Assembly: GCF_000226315.1 (NCBI RefSeq)
Contig: NC_016026.1
Span: 1,674,001 to 1,738,000 of the forward strand
Length of the DNA: 64,000 nucleotides
Direction: 5' to 3'
Origin: Micavibrio aeruginosavorus ARL-13
GTDB taxonomy: Bacteria > Pseudomonadota > Alphaproteobacteria > Micavibrionales > Micavibrionaceae
The stretch's first letter is position 1. Each line of letters begins with the position of its first letter. Under the pieces are notes generated by a model, which was not told where the DNA came from, made no database searches, and saw only the letters and a list, made by a program, of their open reading frames with translations. Position numbers and translations under genes: made by a program. Below, piece after piece: positions 29,952 through 39,462 of this stretch.

Positions 29952-30257
29952 ATGGAATTGTTATCTTTGACAGATTTTGCCCGTTTTGCCGCCGCCCTGA
30001 TCTTCGTTCTGGCGTTGATGGGGGGATTGAGCCTGATTATGCGCCGGATCAATGCCGGGCGCCTGCCCGTCACCGGGACCAACCGGCAAATGCGTGTGGT
30101 TGAAGTTTTGCCGCTGGATGCGCGCCGCCGCGCCATCTTGCTCCAGCGTGGACGCGGCAGCGATGCGCGCCAGCATCTGGTCATTCTCGGCCCCAACGGG
30201 GAAACAATCGTTGAAACAGGAATAGTGGTAAGCGATGACACAGCCAAAAACGGATAA
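29952..30257 (+). CDS. fliO: flagellar export assembly protein FliO
   Basis: FliO assists assembly of the FliP ring. The ATG at 29952 gives 101 residues: one N-terminal membrane helix (FARFAAALIFVLALMGGLSLIM), then the cytoplasmic domain with MRVVEVLPLDARRRAILLQRG and HLVILGPNGETIVETGI, which are typical FliO strands. It overlaps the fliP start by 23 bases, so the two are coupled. Confidence 0.88.
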   Translation: MELLSLTDFARFAAALIFVLALMGGLSLIMRRINAGRLPVTGTNRQMRVVEVLPLDARRRAILLQRGRGSDARQHLVILGPNGETIVETGIVVSDDTAKNG

Positions 30258-31113
30258 TGCCCCCCGCCGCATTGTGAAGAACAAAGTCGCCCTGTGGGGA
30301 TTGGCGTTGTCCGCCATATCCATGGTCATCCTGATGATCCTGATCAACACGCCCGCCTTTGCACAAAGCGTGACACTGGACATGGGTGCCGGCGCACAGG
30401 ACGGCACGGTCAGTGGCCGCGTTGTTCAGTTGGTTGCGTTACTGACCATTCTGTCGCTGGCGCCATCTATCCTGATCATGATGACGTCGTTCACGCGGAT
30501 TATTGTGGTGCTGTCCTTCCTGCGGACCGCCATCGGGATTCAGCAGACGCCGCCAAACACGGTGATGATTTCACTGGCCATCTTCCTGACCTTCTTCATC
30601 ATGGCTCCGACGTTCCAGACCGCGTATCAGGCGGGCGTCGTCCCGTTGATCGAAGAACAGATTGACGAAGTCGAAGCCTTCAAACGCACCGTTGAACCGT
30701 TCCGCGAATTCATGGTCAAGCATGTGCGGGAAACCGACCTGGCCCTGTTCGCGCAAATGAACCAGTCCGAACCCTTCCCCAGCCCGGAAGCCGTACCGCT
30801 GCAGGTATTGATTCCGGCCTTTATGATTTCGGAATTGCGCCGGGCTTTTGAAATCGGGTTTATGCTGTTCCTGCCCTTCGTGATTATCGACATGGTCACG
30901 GCGTCCATCCTGATGTCCATGGGTATGATGATGCTGCCGCCTGTGATGATCTCACTGCCGTTCAAAATCGTATTCTTTGTTCTGGTGGATGGCTGGCACC
31001 TGCTGGCCGGAACATTGGTGCAAAGTTTCGATGTCGGCGCCGTTCCGATCAATATGCCCGCCCCGGCGTTGATCCCTGATGTTCCGGCAGAAGCGATCGG
31101 AACCGTACCTTAA
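30235..31113 (+). CDS. fliP: flagellar export gate protein FliP
   Basis: The core pore subunit of the flagellar export gate. The 292-residue protein has an N-terminal helix likely used as a signal peptide, then LLTILSLAPSILIMMTSFTRIIVVLSFLRTAIG. It continues with the periplasmic loop (EPFREFMVKHVRETDLALF) and the closing block FLPFVIIDMVTASILMSMGMMMLPPVMISLPFKI..FVLVDGW. These are diagnostic FliP motifs. It is coupled to fliO; the next gene is convergent. Confidence 0.97.
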   Translation: MTQPKTDNAPRRIVKNKVALWGLALSAISMVILMILINTPAFAQSVTLDMGAGAQDGTVSGRVVQLVALLTILSLAPSILIMMTSFTRIIVVLSFLRTAIGIQQTPPNTVMISLAIFLTFFIMAPTFQTAYQAGVVPLIEEQIDEVEAFKRTVEPFREFMVKHVRETDLALFAQMNQSEPFPSPEAVPLQVLIPAFMISELRRAFEIGFMLFLPFVIIDMVTASILMSMGMMMLPPVMISLPFKIVFFVLVDGWHLLAGTLVQSFDVGAVPINMPAPALIPDVPAEAIGTVP

Positions 31114-31604
31114 GCTTTCAGCAGATCATCAAGGTCAAGCGCCTCACTTTTCATCGCCAGTTCACCTTCGGGCGTGAACGGCCAGTGATCGCGCGGTTTA
31201 TCCCAATATAACTCAACCCCGTTTTGATCCGGGTCCCGCAGATATAGGGCCTCGCTGACACCGTGATCGGCGGCACCATCCAGCGGAATGCCCGCAGCCA
31301 TGACACGCCGCAACGCGTCAGCCAGCAAACTCCGCGTCGGATACAGGATCGCCGTATGATACAGCCCCGTCGTACCCGGTGCAGGCGGCGCCCCATTCAG
31401 GCTTTCCCATGTGTTCAGTGCAATATGATGGTGGTAATCACCCGACGCCAGAAAGACCGCCCCGCGCCCATAACGCTGGGTGATCCTGAACCCTAAAACG
31501 CCGTGGTAGAAGGCCAGCGCCCGGTCGATATTGGCCACTTTTAAATGGACATGCCCGATCCGCACGCCATCGGCCACTGGAGAAAAATCATTCATGAAAG
31601 CCAT
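31110..31604 (-). CDS. glyoxalase/dioxygenase-superfamily (VOC) protein
   Basis: A 164-residue member of the vicinal oxygen chelate fold. The opening IGHVHLKVANIDRALAFYHGVLGFRI contains the first metal His, and GDYHHHIALNTW and LYLRDPDQNGVELYWDKP follow, resembling catechol-2,3-dioxygenase-like proteins. The real substrate is unknown. The start could be the ATG at 31604 or 31595. Its stop overlaps the convergent fliP stop region by four bases; it is not part of the flagellar operon. Confidence 0.83.
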   Translation of the reverse strand: MAFMNDFSPVADGVRIGHVHLKVANIDRALAFYHGVLGFRITQRYGRGAVFLASGDYHHHIALNTWESLNGAPPAPGTTGLYHTAILYPTRSLLADALRRVMAAGIPLDGAADHGVSEALYLRDPDQNGVELYWDKPRDHWPFTPEGELAMKSEALDLDDLLKA

Positions 31605-31670: not shown

Positions 31671-34664
31671 TCAGTTAGAAGGCTGGTCCGATGCGCGGTA
31701 GGTGTCCAGAAAATCCTTGAACAAATCAACTTCGGACACCAGGGCCGCGATACTTTCGCGGTCCGAAGCCAATGTGGACGTGCGGGACCGCGTCACAACA
31801 TCAAACAATTTTGACCGCGATGTTTTCATCATCTGATCGCCGAAGCGTTCACGCATATTGGCCAAAGCCACACGGTCGCCCGCCAGATTAAGCGCCACAG
31901 CACGGTTCAGGATAATATCGGCCTGTGCCTGCGTCAGCGGACGTTCCGCCACAATCGCCTGATCCACAATCAAATCCTGCAATGCAATCGCCGCATCCTG
32001 CCAGCGCCCGGAATTCCACGCAATATCAGCGCGCAGGCGATTGATGTCGGGGGACGGCGGATAGGTATTCAAAATCGCCAGAGATTCGTCCACGCGCTTG
32101 AGTTCAGACAAAGCCCGCGCCCGCAACATGGCCGCTTCGCGCAATTTTTGGTTCACGCTATCGTCCTTGGGCAATCCGGCATAGGTCGTCGTGGCCTTGT
32201 CCAGAACACGCAAGACCGGATTCGGATTATCGCTGAGCAGGTAAATGGCGGCCAAACGCAATGACGTATCCGCCGCTTCGCGACCTTGCAGGCGATAATC
32301 GACCTGATACTGCAACAAGGTCGCGGCACGGCCCAGCAGGTCGGCGTCGACCAGACGTTCGGCCAGACGGCGGATCAAACGGTTGCCATCATCCCCATCG
32401 GGCGTCAGTTCGCGAAATTCCTCGTAGACTGTAATCGCATCAACCGGACTCATCTTGTCCAGCGCGTCGCTGAGGAACAGATTTTTGAATGAATCCGTCA
32501 TCATATACGCGATGTCGTTGGAAATGTCGGTCCCCGGGCTCATCGCCACGGCATCGCGCAGGATGCTGAACCCCTTCATATAACGGGCCTGATCCAGATA
32601 GAGTTTTCCCAGACGGGAATTGATCTGGGCCTCCAGCTCGTCACCGCGCCACATATAGCGCAAGCCTTCCAGGCGATCGACCGCCTCCTCCAGCTTGATC
32701 GTCCCCTGATCCAGTTGCAACATGGTCAGCGCCAACCCGGCCTTGGCCCGGTACAGATCATCTTTTCCCGTCAGCAACGGTTTCCAGTATTCTTCGGCTT
32801 TTGTATATTCCTTGTTCTGGCGGTGCGCCTCGCCGCGCAGATAATCCATCGTGGCGACCGTCCATGGCTGCAGATGTTTCTGTTCTTTCTGCAACATGCC
32901 CAGCATGGATTCCGCCGCCTTCACCTCACCCGACCGCAGGGCGATTTCGGCCAGACGCAACAGCATCCGCTCCTGTAACCGACGCGGATATTCGGACACA
33001 ATCGTCATATCGGCCGGCAATAATTTCTTCGCCTGTTGCCAGTCTTCCAAACCGGCGGCGGCATAAGCGCGCCAGTAATCCAGTTCTGGGTAATCTTTTA
33101 ACGCCGGAGTGTTCAGGTCACGGAAACCATCTTCGAACATGCTGGCCATGCTAAGCGCGACACCGCGCAGGGCCAAAAATTCAGGGCTTTCTTTGATATC
33201 CGGCATTTCGTTTTCAGCAAAACGCAACAGACCAACGGCCTCCTGCCCACGGTCATTGGCCATGTTCATTTTCGCCATCATCAACAAATCCTGCACCCGG
33301 CCAGATTTGTCTTTCTCCGCCATACCGGCCAGCAGGATGTGCTGGTTATCATGCAGGGCGTTCAGCCCCCCCATCATCCAGCGGTTGAAATCGAACATAC
33401 GCGGCGTTTTTGTGGGGTCCGTTGCCGCCGGATTTTCGGTTTCACCGGTCGTTTTCTGTTCGATAATCCGCTGCGTTACATCGCGCATCCGCGACAGCGC
33501 CAATCCACCCGGGCGCGTTACCGCGATGCCGCCAGCGCGCTTTTCAAACTTCACATCATCGGCCTTGGGCACAATCGCCAGACCGATAGAGGAATTCAAT
33601 TGTTCGAAATCGACGAAATTCCGTTCCGTGCCCGCAAACTGATCCGCGGCATCGACCGTGGCGACCAAAATCGTGTCGCCAACATCGGGGTCAACAATGC
33701 TAATATTTTTCGTGACCAACGGCATCGACCATACCATCGCCCCACCACGAATATCATCGCCCGTTTTAAATTCGCGCGTTGGCGATGTCGGCTCGACCGC
33801 TTTATCCTTCGGCGATACAATCACGCGCCAGATCAAGCCGCCGCCCTCACCCTCAATCGTCGCCGCCCCTGGCATACGTGTGCGATAAGCCACGGCACCT
33901 TCGGATGTTGCTACTTTTTCAAACGGTGTAAAATCTTCTTTCTTCGGCCCATTGATCTGGGGCAACACCGACAGAGATGGGCGGTCAATCACCAGCCATA
34001 AATATCCGTTACGTTCAAACGCGGCCAAGCCCATTTCCTCGGTCGAGGACACGGTAATGACGTGCGGGTCCGCGATGCGGGCCGCCTCCTGCTCCAGAAC
34101 GCTTGGCCCCTGCTCCACCGGAGCGACGGGTGCAGCCACAGCAACAGGGGCAGGTTCAGTCACAGGTGATGGCGGAACAACGTCCGCCGCCGGTTTTTCA
34201 GCTGCCGGCTTTGCCGCTGGCGTTGGGGCCTTTGCGGCCTGTACGGGTTTCTCTTCCGCTGGTTTGGGCGGCACCGGAGCCTCGGCGGCCTTCGCCCCGC
34301 TGGCGGAATTGTAAACATCAACCACCACGCGATCACCGATCAGAAAGTGGCGATATTTGCTGTCCGCCGGAATGCGAATGCGGATTTTTAAATTTTCATC
34401 ATCGGCGGATAGTTTTTCAACCGATGACACGTTGGGCAATTTTTCAACCGCCGTTAAATCCGGTACCGCATTTTTGCGGAAGGTCAGGTCAAGAACACCC
34501 GGTTCCGTTTGTTTCAAATCATATGGAGCGGACGTTCCCCAATCGAACACCACGCGCGCATAATCGTCATGTGTTCCGGTGCGAATGGACACACGGTCCT
34601 GGGCCCATGCCATGGGCATGAGCGCCGTCAAACAAACGCCGGTGAGCAGAAACAGACGCACCAT
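31671..34664 (-). CDS. 997-residue exported helical-repeat protein of the motor operon
   Basis: A signal peptide (LFLLTGVCLTALMPMAWA) is followed by a beta-rich domain at about 20-125 (RVSIRTGTHDDYARVVFDW). Next comes a Pro/Ala/Lys-rich linker (about 130-205), then a second beta-rich region. From about residue 420 to the end lie many 35-40-residue helical repeats of the tetratricopeptide type (for example AYAAAGLEDWQQAKKLL, RGEAHRQNKEYTKAEEYW). It is the last gene of fliL-fliM-DUF6468-MotE-like-MotB-like-MotB-like. A periplasmic scaffold for the stator or motor is a reasonable inference; no family name can be given with certainty. Confidence 0.72.
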   Translation of the reverse strand: MVRLFLLTGVCLTALMPMAWAQDRVSIRTGTHDDYARVVFDWGTSAPYDLKQTEPGVLDLTFRKNAVPDLTAVEKLPNVSSVEKLSADDENLKIRIRIPADSKYRHFLIGDRVVVDVYNSASGAKAAEAPVPPKPAEEKPVQAAKAPTPAAKPAAEKPAADVVPPSPVTEPAPVAVAAPVAPVEQGPSVLEQEAARIADPHVITVSSTEEMGLAAFERNGYLWLVIDRPSLSVLPQINGPKKEDFTPFEKVATSEGAVAYRTRMPGAATIEGEGGGLIWRVIVSPKDKAVEPTSPTREFKTGDDIRGGAMVWSMPLVTKNISIVDPDVGDTILVATVDAADQFAGTERNFVDFEQLNSSIGLAIVPKADDVKFEKRAGGIAVTRPGGLALSRMRDVTQRIIEQKTTGETENPAATDPTKTPRMFDFNRWMMGGLNALHDNQHILLAGMAEKDKSGRVQDLLMMAKMNMANDRGQEAVGLLRFAENEMPDIKESPEFLALRGVALSMASMFEDGFRDLNTPALKDYPELDYWRAYAAAGLEDWQQAKKLLPADMTIVSEYPRRLQERMLLRLAEIALRSGEVKAAESMLGMLQKEQKHLQPWTVATMDYLRGEAHRQNKEYTKAEEYWKPLLTGKDDLYRAKAGLALTMLQLDQGTIKLEEAVDRLEGLRYMWRGDELEAQINSRLGKLYLDQARYMKGFSILRDAVAMSPGTDISNDIAYMMTDSFKNLFLSDALDKMSPVDAITVYEEFRELTPDGDDGNRLIRRLAERLVDADLLGRAATLLQYQVDYRLQGREAADTSLRLAAIYLLSDNPNPVLRVLDKATTTYAGLPKDDSVNQKLREAAMLRARALSELKRVDESLAILNTYPPSPDINRLRADIAWNSGRWQDAAIALQDLIVDQAIVAERPLTQAQADIILNRAVALNLAGDRVALANMRERFGDQMMKTSRSKLFDVVTRSRTSTLASDRESIAALVSEVDLFKDFLDTYRASDQPSN

Positions 34665-34702: not shown

Positions 34703-35533
34703 TTATGGAAAGGCAGAGTCGGGATACACGCGCTCCGCCCGCCAATCGTAGTTCATTATAACAATATCCACGCGTCTGGACAGGTCCAGTCTGCGGTCTT
34801 CGGGCAAAGACGTGCCAATATCGTCATACCGGCCCCGCCCTGCGCCCTGAATGGTTACGGGATAGGTGTAACCGACATTGTCCAATATCGCCGCAACGGC
34901 CGCCGCCCGCGCCATCGACACATCCCAATTTGTCGTAAAACCGAAATTCTTCGCCACATCCACAGCACTCGGGTCAGCATGCCCGACCAGCGTGATTTTA
35001 TTTTTAATCCGCGCCAGAGTGGCCGCAAGGCTGTACAACGCCTTTCCGCCCTCGTCCTTCACGCTGGCCTGTCCCGGTTCGAACAACAAATCTTCCGACA
35101 GGGATATGATCAACGAATCATAACGCGGGATCAGAACAACGCGGCCGGCCAAATCGGCATGACGGTCAATCACCGATTGGATCAAGGCCTGCAGGTAGCG
35201 GATATCCAGCGCCTGATCAAAATTGATTTTGGCGATATTGATTGTTTCTTCCGGCCCGGCGTTCATTTGCGCGCCATAAAAACGGTTGAATTCCTGTTGC
35301 AGGGCGGATGTAATTTCAGAGAATGATTTTTTCTCCGGTTCCGACATGGCGAACAGCAAGACGAAGAAAGTCAACATCAACGCCATCACATCCGTGAAGG
35401 TCGTCAACCACAAAAACGGATTACCATCGGCCGCCGCATCACCCATACGGCGATTATTCCGCCGCGGCATTTTTTTGGGCGCACCCGCAACATCAAAGGC
35501 ATGCTTGGCCGTGCGTTTAGGGGGCGTTGCCAT
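34703..35533 (-). CDS. MotB/OmpA-family stator-like protein with the conserved Asp
   Basis: A MotB-like protein with a basic N-terminus, one membrane helix bearing the ion-binding Asp (TFTDVMALMLTFFVLLFAMS) and a C-terminal OmpA-type peptidoglycan-binding domain. That domain has LLFEPGQASV, LVGHADPSAV, SMARAAAVAAIL and LSRRVDIVI. Stators need a MotA partner, which is not in this window. ATG at 35533 (276 residues) follows GGAGG; earlier in-frame ATGs overlap the ribosome site. The gene begins inside the end of the Asp-lacking paralogue upstream, so their translation is coupled. Confidence 0.87.
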   Translation of the reverse strand: MATPPKRTAKHAFDVAGAPKKMPRRNNRRMGDAAADGNPFLWLTTFTDVMALMLTFFVLLFAMSEPEKKSFSEITSALQQEFNRFYGAQMNAGPEETINIAKINFDQALDIRYLQALIQSVIDRHADLAGRVVLIPRYDSLIISLSEDLLFEPGQASVKDEGGKALYSLAATLARIKNKITLVGHADPSAVDVAKNFGFTTNWDVSMARAAAVAAILDNVGYTYPVTIQGAGRGRYDDIGTSLPEDRRLDLSRRVDIVIMNYDWRAERVYPDSAFP

Positions 35534-36290
35534 CATCGCCTCCACGGTCTACGGGGGCTGGTTCATTATTCCCGGGAACGATGATTTTCGATGCATCCAT
35601 TTTTTCGTAGCGCAGGAAAAATAAATCAACCATCGCCGCATCACCCTGTTGCACCGATGCCGTAATTTGCTTGGCGGGCAAGCCTGCTTTCTCAATCGTT
35701 TCCGCCATGGCATCGACGGCACGGATTGTCTCTTGCAAAGCCTGTGGCGCCAGCCGCTGCATCCGCGCCGGATTTTCGACAACGTTATAAGTAATTTCCA
35801 TGCGGAAGGGTTGGCCCCGGTCTTCGGACCGCAACATCACAACCAAGGTCGGCAGGAAATAATTCTGAAAGGCGGACTCCTTGTTCGTTCCCGCCGGGGC
35901 CACGCGCTGGCCAATCGCGGTCACGGCCCGCTCGAACGCATCACGCGGAACGCGCACGTGCATCATGCCGCGTTCCTTGTTCATCACCACTTCATAAGAC
36001 GGAATTTGCGCCTGGAACAGGCCACTCACGCGGTCCAGCGTATCGCCGTCATAAATGGACGTTTCAATGGATTTCGTGACCGACGGGCGCATATCACCGC
36101 GCTGGATAATTTTGGACGCAAACGTGAATTCCAGGCTTTCCATCACGTTGCGGGCCTTTAATTCCTCAAACGTGGAAATGGAATTCAGAACGATAAAAAA
36201 CGCCAGCAACATAATGAACAGCGACAGCCCCAGAAGCTGGGATGCCAGCCCCTGCCCCTGTGGTTCAATATTCTTGCGTCTGCGTTTCAT
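35517..36290 (-). CDS. degenerate MotB-like protein lacking the ion-binding Asp
   Basis: The 257-residue protein has the MotB layout: basic N-terminus (MKRRRKN), one membrane helix (LLGLSLFIMLLAFFIVLN) and a C-terminal domain that looks like a worn OmpA fold (MHVRVPRDAFERAV, LQETIRAVDAMAETIEKAGLP, SVQQGDAAMVDLFF). Aligning the helix on its AFF with the next gene's TFF puts Ser23 where MotB has the essential Asp. It therefore cannot carry ions in the usual way. It overlaps the downstream MotB-like gene and lies 12 bases after the MotE-like gene. Confidence 0.72.
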   Translation of the reverse strand: MKRRRKNIEPQGQGLASQLLGLSLFIMLLAFFIVLNSISTFEELKARNVMESLEFTFASKIIQRGDMRPSVTKSIETSIYDGDTLDRVSGLFQAQIPSYEVVMNKERGMMHVRVPRDAFERAVTAIGQRVAPAGTNKESAFQNYFLPTLVVMLRSEDRGQPFRMEITYNVVENPARMQRLAPQALQETIRAVDAMAETIEKAGLPAKQITASVQQGDAAMVDLFFLRYEKMDASKIIVPGNNEPAPVDRGGDDGNAP

Positions 36291-36302: not shown

Positions 36303-37052
36303 TCAGTTTTGCGGCAACATGGGCATTTTTTTCTGTTCCGCCATCAAAATGGTCACCGTGCGGGCGCGTTCGGCATCCATTTCGGCCAGAATGGGGGCGG
36401 ATTTCCGTTCCGACATACGCGTCATCACCGCGATCAAAACATCCAGATCCAGCGTATTGAAAATGCGCGCGGCGTCCTTTGCCTTCATGCCTTCGTAAAT
36501 TTTAACCAGGCTGGCAATCCGGGCCTCTTCTTCTTCAGACCGCTTTTGCATCAACCCTTCAATCTCGGTCCGCACCGTATTCAGCTCACGCAGTTTTTGA
36601 TCCAGCTCTCGCTCCGCGGCGCTCAGCAACGCTTCGCGCACGGCCATTTCCTTTTCCTTGGCGTCCAGCTGGTCACGGCGTTTGGCCAGATCCTGATAAA
36701 TTTCGGCTTTTACCGATGAATAATCGATATCGGTATCCCCCGCATCTTTCCATTCAACGGATTCAGCATCATCAAATTCGGGTTTCGGCTTGATCTCCTC
36801 ACCCGGCGCATCCAGATCCAGACGGCCCGGAATTTCATCTTCGGCCACAGCCGCCTCACCCTCTTTTGCGGCAGCTTCGGTTGGGGATATGGCCGGGGGT
36901 GCGGCATGTTCGTCCGCGTCCACCTCTTCCTGCGCCATGGCGGAGCCCATATGACCCAGACCATAGGCAAAATCACCCACGCGCACGGCAAACGCCATGC
37001 TGGCCACAAGGACCAGCATAGGCATCATCCGGATTTTACTGCGCAGGTTCAT
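36303..37052 (-). CDS. MotE-like flagellar motor chaperone (MgtE N-domain fold)
   Basis: The 249-residue exported protein has an N-terminal signal or anchor helix and an acidic Glu/Ala/Pro-rich segment (about 40-100). A coiled coil follows (KEMAVREALLSAAERELDQKLRELNTVRTEIEGLM). The C-terminal block KIYEGMKAKDAARIFNTLDLDVLIAVMTRMSERKSAPILAEM is typical of the MgtE N-terminal fold in MotE proteins. In rhizobia MotE stabilises MotC, a periplasmic stator-associated protein. Here it lies between DUF6468 and the MotB-like pair. Confidence 0.82.
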   Translation of the reverse strand: MNLRSKIRMMPMLVLVASMAFAVRVGDFAYGLGHMGSAMAQEEVDADEHAAPPAISPTEAAAKEGEAAVAEDEIPGRLDLDAPGEEIKPKPEFDDAESVEWKDAGDTDIDYSSVKAEIYQDLAKRRDQLDAKEKEMAVREALLSAAERELDQKLRELNTVRTEIEGLMQKRSEEEEARIASLVKIYEGMKAKDAARIFNTLDLDVLIAVMTRMSERKSAPILAEMDAERARTVTILMAEQKKMPMLPQN

Positions 37053-37088: not shown

Positions 37089-37664
37089 TTAACGGCGGCC
37101 CTTATTGATGGCGGCGAACAATTCGCGTTCGGCTTTGCTGTGGAACAGATCGGCGTCATCGTCGCCGCTGGACAGATCGTCCTCAACCCCGTCGACGCCC
37201 GCATCGTCATCTTCAAATTCACGATCGCGGATATTAAACCCGGCGATGGCCGGTTCTTTCCGCTTCACACTGGCGGCCACAGCGCCCAAACCCGGCGATG
37301 CCGCACCACTTGTATCAATCCGTGCCGCCGTATCCCGGCCACGATCCGCCAGACGTTCCAGACGTGCGGCCAGATTGTCCCCGGCTTCGGTCATGATGTT
37401 CAGTTCATCGGCTTGAATGCGCGCCTTGTTCATGCGCTCCTGCAATTCCGCACCGGCCTCGCGCGAGGCGGATTTCATGCCGGCAATGGCGGCTTCGGCC
37501 CGGTCGATATTGCGCGATAAATCCTGAACCAATTTGTCCAGTTCTTTACGGCTGCTGCGAAACGCCGCCATGTTCGACGACAGGCGCACGGAAAAGAAGA
37601 TCGTCACCGCCAGAAACAGCAGGACAATTCCGTCCAAAATCATACCAATCAATGCGCCGTCCAT
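37089..37664 (-). CDS. DUF6468 membrane protein
   Basis: The 191-residue protein has one N-terminal membrane helix (IGMILDGIVLLFLAVTIFFSVRL) and a long helical region (RSSRKELDKLVQDLSRNIDRAEAAIAGM). An acidic C-terminal part (VDGVEDDLSSGDDDADLF) ends it. The pattern matches DUF6468, which in alphaproteobacteria sits between fliM and motE-like genes. Two bases separate it from fliM. A role next to the C-ring or stator is inferred from this position only. Confidence 0.78.
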   Translation of the reverse strand: MDGALIGMILDGIVLLFLAVTIFFSVRLSSNMAAFRSSRKELDKLVQDLSRNIDRAEAAIAGMKSASREAGAELQERMNKARIQADELNIMTEAGDNLAARLERLADRGRDTAARIDTSGAASPGLGAVAASVKRKEPAIAGFNIRDREFEDDDAGVDGVEDDLSSGDDDADLFHSKAERELFAAINKGRR

Positions 37665-37666
37665 GA

Positions 37667-38776
37667 TTATTGATCATCCTTTTCCGGCGGGATGTAGCGT
37701 TCAACGCGCACGGCAATATTGCCCTGCTTCTGGCCCACAGGCCCGCGGAACATCGGGAAATGGCCGCAGCGCAATTCCAGATCATCATCCACACTTGTAT
37801 TAAAGACCACGCGCGTGCCAACTTTCCAGTTCAGCAGATCGTGCAGCGATACAGTCTTTTCGGCCAGAACCGCCTGCAACTGCACTTCGGTTTTGTACAG
37901 TTCCTGGGTCAAGTGGTTTTCCCAGATGGAGTCACGACCGAATTTTTCACCCATGAACATCTGCAACAGCAGTTCACGGATTGGTTCCAGCGTTGCATAC
38001 GGGATCAGAATTTCAATACGCCCGCCGCGATCACCCATATCCACACGCAGACGGGCCAGAACGCACGCGTTCCCCGATTGCGTAATCGTGGCAAAACGCG
38101 GGTTGGTTTCCATGCGGTCCAGCTGGAAGCTGACCGGGGCCAACGGGTCAAACGCCGTGGACAAATCGCTGAGCGTCACGCCCACCATGCGTTCAACCAG
38201 CTTTGTTTCAATCGTGGTATAGGGGCGCCCTTCGACACGAATGGCGGGCGTGCCCTTACGTCCGCCCAACAACACATCCACCACCGAGTAAATCAGTGCG
38301 GAGTCTGTGACCAGCAAGCCGTTGTTATCCCACTCCTCCGCCTTGAACACCGACAACATGGCGGGCAGCGGGATAGAGTTCATATAATCGCCGAAACGCA
38401 CCGTGGACACCTGGTCCAGCGAGACTTCAACGTTATCGGATGTCAGATTGCGCAAGGATGTCGACATCAAACGCACCAGACGGTCGAACACAATGTCCAA
38501 CATCGGCAGGCGTTCATAGTTCACCATGGCGGAATTGATCAGGGCCATCACGCCCGACATTTCCTCGCCACCCGAAATTTCGTCATCAAAGCCCAGCAGA
38601 GAGTCGATCTCATCCTGGTTCAGAATACGGGTGCCGCCGTCTTCCTCTTCGTCAAAACCGCCATCAAATGACGGCGTGGCGTCGGCCTTCGCCGCGCCAG
38701 AATCGGTACCGTCGCCCCATTCTTCCATCATGGCGCGTTCGGCATCGGTCATTTGTTCCAGTTCGGTATCGCTCAT
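37667..38776 (-). CDS. fliM: flagellar motor switch protein FliM
   Basis: A C-ring protein that binds phospho-CheY and FliG. In the 369-residue product, the middle domain carries YERLPMLDIVFDRLVRLMSTSLRNLTSDNVEVSL and MGDRGGRIEILIPYATLEPIRE. The C-terminal SPOA domain ends GQKQGNIAVRVERYIP. The N-terminal 60 residues are acidic and include LNQDEIDSLLGF, the CheY-binding motif. It lies 89 bases after fliL and two before DUF6468. Confidence 0.96.
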   Translation of the reverse strand: MSDTELEQMTDAERAMMEEWGDGTDSGAAKADATPSFDGGFDEEEDGGTRILNQDEIDSLLGFDDEISGGEEMSGVMALINSAMVNYERLPMLDIVFDRLVRLMSTSLRNLTSDNVEVSLDQVSTVRFGDYMNSIPLPAMLSVFKAEEWDNNGLLVTDSALIYSVVDVLLGGRKGTPAIRVEGRPYTTIETKLVERMVGVTLSDLSTAFDPLAPVSFQLDRMETNPRFATITQSGNACVLARLRVDMGDRGGRIEILIPYATLEPIRELLLQMFMGEKFGRDSIWENHLTQELYKTEVQLQAVLAEKTVSLHDLLNWKVGTRVVFNTSVDDDLELRCGHFPMFRGPVGQKQGNIAVRVERYIPPEKDDQ

Positions 38777-38865: not shown

Positions 38866-39462
38866 TTATTGTATCAGGATTTCCTGAAACAGGACATCTT
38901 TGACCTCAACCGGATAGGCCGCCGCGTTCACGCGAGACAGCAATTCCATTTGCAGACGGTAAATGCCCGCAGATCCGCGTAAATCCTTGACGCGCAGCTC
39001 GCGCAAATAGGTCTGGAACTGGTCCACCACGCGCGGCATCACGGCTTGCACCGCAGCCATATCGGCCTGGTTTGCCACTTCCAACTGAACCTTCAAACGC
39101 AGATAGCGTGGCTGTTCATCCGGGCCGGACAGGTTGACCAACATGTTTGGAATTTCAAGGAAAACCGGGCCACCCACAACGCCGCCATGGCCGTCGCTTT
39201 TGCCATGGGCATCCGCTTTTTTGCCGTGACCATCATCAGCGGCCGCATGTTCTTCGGTGGCCTCACCCTTCTTCAAAATTTTGTCGAGTGCGCCGGTGAA
39301 ATACAACCCACCACCCGCGCCGAGCAAAAGAAACAGCGGCACAACGGCGAACAATACAATTTTCTTCGCGTTAAACTTCTTGCCACCACCTTCGGCGGCA
39401 ACGTCTTCGCCTGCGCCGTTTTCGGTGTCGGTGTCATCTGTCTGGTCGGCCATGGAACTCAT
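38866..39462 (-). CDS. fliL: flagellar basal body-associated protein FliL
   Basis: FliL surrounds or supports stator units at the inner membrane. The 198-residue protein has an acidic N-terminus, one membrane helix (VLFAVVPLFLLLGAGGGLYF) and a His/Asp-rich linker (HAAADDGHGKKADAHGKSDGH). The periplasmic FliL domain runs from FLEIPNMLVNLSGP to VKDVLFQEILIQ. It is first in the motor operon, opposite the divergent flgF. Confidence 0.92.
   Translation of the reverse strand: MSSMADQTDDTDTENGAGEDVAAEGGGKKFNAKKIVLFAVVPLFLLLGAGGGLYFTGALDKILKKGEATEEHAAADDGHGKKADAHGKSDGHGGVVGGPVFLEIPNMLVNLSGPDEQPRYLRLKVQLEVANQADMAAVQAVMPRVVDQFQTYLRELRVKDLRGSAGIYRLQMELLSRVNAAAYPVEVKDVLFQEILIQ

Follow-up and report, generated by a model that had tools for sequence, protein, structure and literature searches.

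The window analysed here is a stretch of 64,000 nucleotides from the genome of Micavibrio aeruginosavorus ARL-13, which consists of one contig of 2.48 Mb. It contains a flagellar operon on the minus strand in the order fliL, fliM, a DUF6468 gene, a MotE/FlbB-like gene, two motB-like genes (here B' and B) and a gene for an AMIN-TPR protein. The genes fliL (38866..39462) and DUF6468 (37089..37664) were assigned by homology matches, and fliM (37667..38776) by a PF02154 match at G000:C1:1711967-1712542. The product of 36303..37052, here called MotE-like, has weak matches to the MgtE_N and FlbB models, both under cut-off. B' (35517..36290, 257 aa) is identified from its ORF, homology and predicted fold as a MotB paralogue without the ion-binding Asp, and B (34703..35545, open from a GTG at 35545) from its ORF, Pfam matches and alignment as a MotB/PomB-type stator subunit with the Asp and an OmpA domain. 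The last gene (31671..34664, 997 aa) encodes an AMIN-like/TPR protein that is a candidate periplasmic stator scaffold, based on weak AMIN-like and TPR matches, a structure model and a Foldseek search. Beyond the operon, a minus-strand ORF of 164 aa (31110-31604) reads like a glyoxalase/VOC-type protein, and it overlaps by 4 nt the end of a plus-strand ORF (30235-31113) that reads like fliP.

The two MotB-like ORFs lie side by side and overlap, as the original prediction had it. Counted from the GTG at 35545, B is 280 aa long; this start was set aside because a GGAGG lies directly beside it. The GGAGG (35539..35543, minus strand), a probable ribosome-binding site of B, stands within the 3' end of B' and is followed by two ATGs of B. 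Given the GGAGG at 35543..35539, the ATG at 35533 is the likelier start. With the ATG starts the gene overlap is about 17-20 nt, compared to 29 nt from the GTG, and therefore B' and B are probably translated together.

The original prediction held that the downstream protein keeps the stator Asp and that the upstream paralogue has a Ser at the same helix position. Both statements were borne out by alignment. B has the Asp (Asp52 in GTG numbering, codon 35390..35392, minus strand), the FF motif and the OmpA domain. B' also has a single N-terminal helix with an FF motif and a plug region, and alignment on this motif places Ser23 (codon 36222..36224, minus strand) where MotB has its Asp, so that the ion-binding Asp is absent from B' in the window. 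The MotB_plug model PF13677 gives B 51 bits and B' 19.9 bits (cut-off 24); at E-values up to 0.1 it matches 28 of 29 B' members, the window B' itself being below the Pfam cut-off. HHalign comparison of B' with B gives E-values of 1e-7 with narrow sequence sets and 5e-16 over 180 columns with wide sets.

The state of the Asp column was then read from alignments. Among near relatives (27 of 30 B' sequences aligned, including the window copy, L007; L012, L023 and L031 were dropped for a late start, N runs or a contig edge), B' has Ser in 20, Ala in 5, Gly in 1 and Cys in 1, and B has Asp in 25 of 25 (25 of 29 aligned; L016, L019, L020 and L023 dropped). Thus neither the window B' nor its near relatives carry an Asp or Glu at the ion position or a helix of an unrelated family. 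Such residues do occur farther off, as Asp in 3 of 73 B' proteins across the class and as Glu in 13 of 15 altered upstream proteins outside Alphaproteobacteria. The class-wide B' column reads Ser 43, Gly 17, Ala 10 and Asp 3, two of the three Asp-bearing proteins being unaligned in the helix column count and read directly. The class-wide partners B have both Asp and Trp in 71 of 71 aligned sequences. The three Asp-bearing B' proteins (L225, L227 and L236) combine the Asp and a MotB-type helix with a B'-type periplasmic domain, and they stand apart from each other in trees, near Asp-less relatives. Gene conversion of their helix from B was considered and rejected, as the helices of L225 and L227 are no closer to their own partner than to the best other partner.

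The columns of the B' helix were counted as well. At the Asp place (position 0) a Ser, Gly or Ala is found in 70 of 73 proteins, and small residues recur at +7 (58 of 73), +14 (58 of 73) and +16 (70 of 73). Small residues are found in 8 and 10 of 71 proteins at -4 and -3, and in at most 3 of 71-73 at -2, -1 and +1 to +6. The Phe residues at +8 and +9 are kept in 72 and 69 of the 73 proteins. These counts are partly selected, because the B' profile itself favours helices of such kind; as far as columns can tell, the pattern is that of a tightly packed helix with a stripe of small residues. A mere membrane anchor would presumably not need such a signature, and we infer that the B' helix may still lie in the MotA pore beside the active B.

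The OmpA-like domain of B' had been described as weakened; in the Pfam search, PF00691 matches B (34.6 bits) and has no match in the window B'. The predicted structure of B' has a mean pLDDT of 73.7 (79-94 for residues 81-120, 53-79 for 121-160 and 90-95 for 161-230). In this model the periplasmic part aligns with 6jfw (Z 9.6, 3.3 Å, 121 residues), with the MotB-like structure 3khn (Z 9.4, 4.1 Å, 124 residues) and with MotS 9ljl (Z 8.3, 3.9 Å, 118 residues); Foldseek E-values are modest (4.4e-4 for 3khn, and 3.9e-5 for the best match, 5jir). By predicted fold, B' thus has an OmpA-like periplasmic domain. Peptidoglycan-binding motifs of the GHTD type and the RRV[DE] type were not seen in the window B'. 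A pattern search of the 73 B' proteins found a GHxD-type motif in 5 and an RRV-type motif in 4, with both together in none; NRRVDI is present in the B' of L240 and L243. Several distant B proteins also seem to be without parts of these motifs: where letters are available (some sequences are partial), the motif Asp is present in 38 of 61 and the second Arg in 48 of 49.

A tree was built with 77 rows selected out of 148; in it, 45 B' proteins fall on one side of a branch with SH-aLRT support of 100, and 29 B proteins fall on another with support of 95. When the helix was removed (66 rows, six long rows left out), 22 B' proteins grouped with support of 98 and 20 B proteins with 97, and three changes of the Asp state were needed among B'. 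Both trees are quick and long-branched, and their deep order is unsure. With the split between B' and B kept, B' looks like one old MotB paralogue that went through several changes of the Asp state. Taken together, the results give good support to reading B' as an ion-dead paralogue of MotB, encoded alongside an active MotB.

The pair is conserved far beyond this genome. A single-sequence query found B' in 44 of 58 genomes of a draw of relatives (own genome included), and B is the next gene after B' in 29 of the 30 loci retrieved from this draw; the remaining one (L035), near a contig end, shows none. Across the class, a narrow B' profile matched 72 of 289 genomes, of which two (G059 and G104) proved on reading to have single Asp-bearing MotBs. 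A broader profile matched 137 of 289 at E 0.001, its weaker matches including B itself and other OmpA-type proteins. The B'-bearing class genomes number 74, and 73 were read (all but G343) in 78 loci, five of which are comparison or second places. B was found in the same fetched stretch as B' in 71 of 73 class-wide loci, the exceptions being L046, at a contig end, and L234. In the genome of the latter (G190; L234 and L253), about 6 kb separates B' from B and the two are on opposite strands, an arrangement seen at no other of the 73 loci.

A further set of named loci, the best 80 of 175 matches, came from a search pattern that required Ser, Ala or Gly and did not select the neighbour. Among these best 80, B follows B' in 80 and has the Asp in 79, with one gap. 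Relatives of the other operon genes are frequent in the same best 80 of 175, some of which are cut by contig ends: TPR in 78, MotE in 72, DUF6468 in 68, FliM in 67 and FliL in 65. A CheZ-like gene is found in 51 of them, lies between the MotE-like gene and B' in the conserved operon where present, and was confirmed by Pfam for the L016 copy. The named carriers include Thalassospira, Tistrella mobilis, Caenispirillum, Sneathiella, Roseospira, Rhodospira, Kiloniella, Azospirillum halopraeferens and Kordiimonas. Accordingly, the operon comparison that had been proposed for Micavibrio-like genomes shows an arrangement that is not specific to them. These results show that the B'-B pair is not due to chance and is widespread in the class.

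Evolutionary distances were correlated for 51 of the 80 named loci, after 12 Thalassospira near-copies and the loci lacking one of seven genes were dropped. The partial correlation of B' with B is 0.23, and none of 999 permutations was as high; the pair is not singled out, however, as B' gives 0.39 with FliM and 0.31 with the TPR protein. Co-evolution was thus rejected as a proof of contact between B' and B, because it does not discriminate.

The absence of a motA from the window, noted in the original prediction, was confirmed: all three MotA/ExbB-type genes of the genome lie elsewhere. One (L001) was read as TolQ/ExbB-like, one is a classic MotA (L003), and one, here MotA2 (L002), has PomA as its best NCBIfam model (213 bits, under the cut-off of 341). 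The MotB_plug matches of the genome are the classic MotB, B and B'. The classic MotAB was rejected as the partner of B' and B, as it is itself a complete pair with TIGR03818 and NF006548 both over their cut-offs. MotA2 is an orphan (G000:C1:754994-758332) with no motB adjoining; it lies directly behind two ORFs that look like fliH and fliN. The 30 best MotA2 loci all have a fliN relative ahead of MotA2 on the same strand and also contain a fliH relative, and no MotB match was found in them within 1.5 kb on either side.

MotA2 and B' occur together. The scores of the MotA2 profile have a gap between 250 and 224 bits, and 73 of the 289 class genomes lie above it. Both MotA2 and B' are present in 69 genomes, B' only in 5, MotA2 only in 4 and neither in 211, in counts uncorrected for relatedness. 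The B'-only genomes (G089, G116, G126, G179 and G181) are drafts of 78-95% completeness, with no MotA2 shown in G089 (84% complete); the MotA2-only genomes are G088, G101, G325 and G337. Since FliM is found in 160 of the 289 genomes, at least 82 of the FliM-bearing genomes lack both B' and MotA2, so the pairing does not simply reflect being flagellated. In the relatives draw (n = 58, single-sequence queries), both were found in 41 genomes, B' only in 3, MotA2 only in 4 and neither in 10. Six genomes of this draw (G012, G020, G032, G044, G053 and G056) have no B' match and a best MotA2 match that is only 27-33% identical, which suggests that one stator type may have taken the place of another inside the order.

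A Pfam check of 19 chosen genomes found a further MotB_plug gene besides B and B' in 14, so that a further stator is the usual case. In G263 (99% complete) and G140 (97% complete), B and B' are the only MotB_plug matches, and the MotA/ExbB matches are MotA2 and one protein read by score as TolQ-type, together with a weak 25.6-bit match in G140. Hence, with Pfam models, MotA2-B'-B is the only stator found in these two genomes; G105 and G230 give a similar picture and are 81-84% complete. MotA2 is a candidate MotA-type partner for B, in view of the co-occurrence and of the sole stator found in two near-complete genomes.

Altered MotB pairs were also found outside Alphaproteobacteria. In a draw from the phylum, matches at 1e-10 occur in 74 of 398 genomes, and 64 of these do not belong to the class. 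Of the 27 loci that we read, 23 come from outside the class; many were chosen for tandem matches, so that the counts are not a rate. In 15 of the 23 (L264-L272, L274, L275 and L280-L283), a MotA2-like gene is followed on the same strand by an altered upstream MotB and then by an Asp-bearing MotB. The upstream protein has Glu at the Asp place in 13 and Gln in 2, and its peptidoglycan motifs are kept in 15 of 15. The MotA2-like gene scores 172-248 bits, under the class threshold of 250, some copies being cut by the stretch. Most of these 15 genomes are, at a guess, Zetaproteobacteria. The other loci read outside the class comprise one with two tandem Asp-bearing MotBs (G352), six single Asp-bearing MotBs and one cut locus. 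At L273, two tandem MotBs with near-identical helices, both with the Asp, stand behind a MotA2-like gene, much as reported for Aquifex. A common origin of the alphaproteobacterial B' and the non-alpha upstream protein is not claimed, as its support is 93 with the helix and only 39 without it.

The neighbouring TPR protein was modelled from 28 sequences (mean pLDDT 83.5) and shows an N-terminal helix, then two beta domains separated by a disordered linker, and finally a TPR superhelix. Its top Foldseek match among 350,542 chains is 9hmf_K (E 2.7e-10 over 873 columns; next match 9.2e-9), a chain of the Campylobacter motor periplasmic scaffold; which protein chain K represents is not given by the tool. 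The TM-scores of this match are 0.24 and 0.29 with an rmsd of 28.8, and 9hmf_K is not among the best 50 VIA-align rows, which are filled by other TPR proteins. For both of these reasons, membership of the PflA family is not claimed. In the part of PMC12222027 available, Campylobacter PflA (a beta-sandwich, a linker and 16 TPRs), PflB and FliL are described as holding the stators. The TPR protein resembles the C. jejuni PflA/PflB scaffold described there in its beta domain, disordered linker and TPR superhelix, and differs from PflA in its second beta domain before the TPRs. The operon may carry its own stator scaffold, to which B' could bind via its altered domain.

Three functional readings had been offered in the original prediction: a mixed dimer, a brace like MotC and a gate of the stator. 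The indirect evidence speaks best for the mixed dimer, and the other two keep a lower probability. We lean towards a model in which a single stator axle is made of two unlike chains, B' and B, as a heterodimer inside a MotA2 pentamer. The complex, stoichiometry, ion count and scaffold contact that we infer are as follows. A PomA-like MotA2 pentamer, encoded elsewhere behind fliN, would surround the B'-B heterodimer. B would give the only ion-binding Asp and the peptidoglycan anchor, and the second helix in the pore would come from B', whose residue at the Asp place is small. The periplasmic domain of B', lacking peptidoglycan-binding motifs, may contact the co-encoded scaffold (FliL and the AMIN-TPR protein). 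One turn of MotA would then move about five ions, not ten. This model is favoured because B' keeps the MotB helix signature with a small residue at the Asp place and co-occurs with one MotA type, because two genomes have no other stator found, and because a row of A-B'-B genes occurs in another lineage. The structure predictions are of single chains only, and the three B' proteins that keep the Asp among the 73 speak against the heterodimer. Tandem MotBs also need not heterodimerise, because each Aquifex MotB chimera worked with MotA without the other; and with another stator usually present, MotA2-B homodimers with a separate B' are possible.

The brace role ascribed to MotC, MotY or FliL could instead belong to B', as a separate periplasmic scaffold subunit that dimerises with itself, uses its helix merely as an anchor and positions MotA2-B2 stators. 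The absence of peptidoglycan motifs from B', the operon shared with FliL and a scaffold-like TPR protein, and the evolutionary distances of B', which follow those of TPR and FliM more than those of B, are all consistent with such a role. We nevertheless regard it as rather unlikely, as the B' helix keeps the MotB signature and, in 70 of 73 proteins, has a small residue precisely where the Asp would stand. In addition, three B' proteins carry a full MotB-type helix with the Trp and the Asp, so the B' helix can be of the pore type. That MotA2 is encoded far from B would suit an assembly or targeting factor, in which B' fills orphan MotA2 pentamers before B takes its place, or holds the channel closed ahead of assembly; as a placeholder in the pore, an ion-dead MotB would be safe. 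However, the MotA2-like gene, altered MotB and MotB stand in a row outside Alphaproteobacteria, where no separate need for targeting is apparent, and the altered protein there has Glu in 13 of 15; this makes the assembly role improbable. It is highly improbable that B' acts as a brake or clutch, with its homodimers forming ion-dead MotA2 stators at motor sites. Leaving the Asp aside, B' does keep all that a pore helix requires, but it is without the peptidoglycan motifs by which a stator is held in position, and it adjoins B in nearly all loci read (the exceptions being G190 and contig ends), where separate regulation would be expected of a brake.

Compared to known systems, the heterodimeric stator proposed here would have its nearest precedents in AglRQS of Myxococcus xanthus and motA-motB1-motB2 of Aquifex aeolicus. 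The original prediction knew of no described stator with this built-in asymmetry in such an operon context; the combination of one MotA with two MotB-like proteins has in fact been described in both of these organisms. AglRQS has one MotA and two MotB homologues, as do MotA2, B and B' here beside a separate classic MotAB, and a heterodimer has been raised and not decided in the available parts of PMC9120999 and PMC9389320. According to those parts, AglQ and AglS both have the membrane Asp (PMC9389320), have TolR-like domains and drive gliding, whereas B' is without the Asp, and the domains here are OmpA-like and encoded in a flagellar operon. The Aquifex genes form a flagellar operon with tandem motB genes of differing periplasmic parts; the two MotBs share 97% identity in the helix and N-terminal regions, and either of them, as a chimera, works with MotA, as far as the excerpts of PMC4525482 go. 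They likewise combine one motA-type gene with two tandem motB genes; a loss of the Asp is not mentioned for Aquifex in those excerpts. With respect to PomAB and MotAB, B is of the ordinary MotB/PomB type and MotA2 scores best with PomA, but the known B subunits are taken as homodimers with two Asp residues, and here an ion-dead paralogue is encoded with B. The MotB Asp is called 'universally conserved' in the available text of PMC7787011, and no description of an Asp-less MotB paired with a MotB was recognised in the open-licence PMC literature as far as its accessible text extends, which is not proof of absence.

As a tentative proposal, to which we would give somewhat less than an even chance, there may be an alphaproteobacterial class of stators with a fixed asymmetric axle, composed of a MotA2 pentamer, an ion-active, peptidoglycan-bound B and an ion-dead, scaffold-bound B'; a further lineage of the phylum would have relatives of it or parallels to it. 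In the 5:2 rotary stator model, as set out in the available part of PMC9389320, each ion transit is predicted to drive one 36-degree step that carries the B dimer from one of its two equivalent states to the other. If the proposal is true, MotA would rotate by about 72 degrees per ion, compared to 36, with a different gear ratio, and a natural motor would let a single Asp be examined by itself. A natural and widespread stator minus one Asp would test the need for alternation and what sets the number of ions per turn. The series Asp/Asp, Glu/Asp, Gln/Asp and Ser-Gly-Ala/Asp would offer ready-made natural variants, and such a stator would show that its two legs can split ion binding and anchoring between them.
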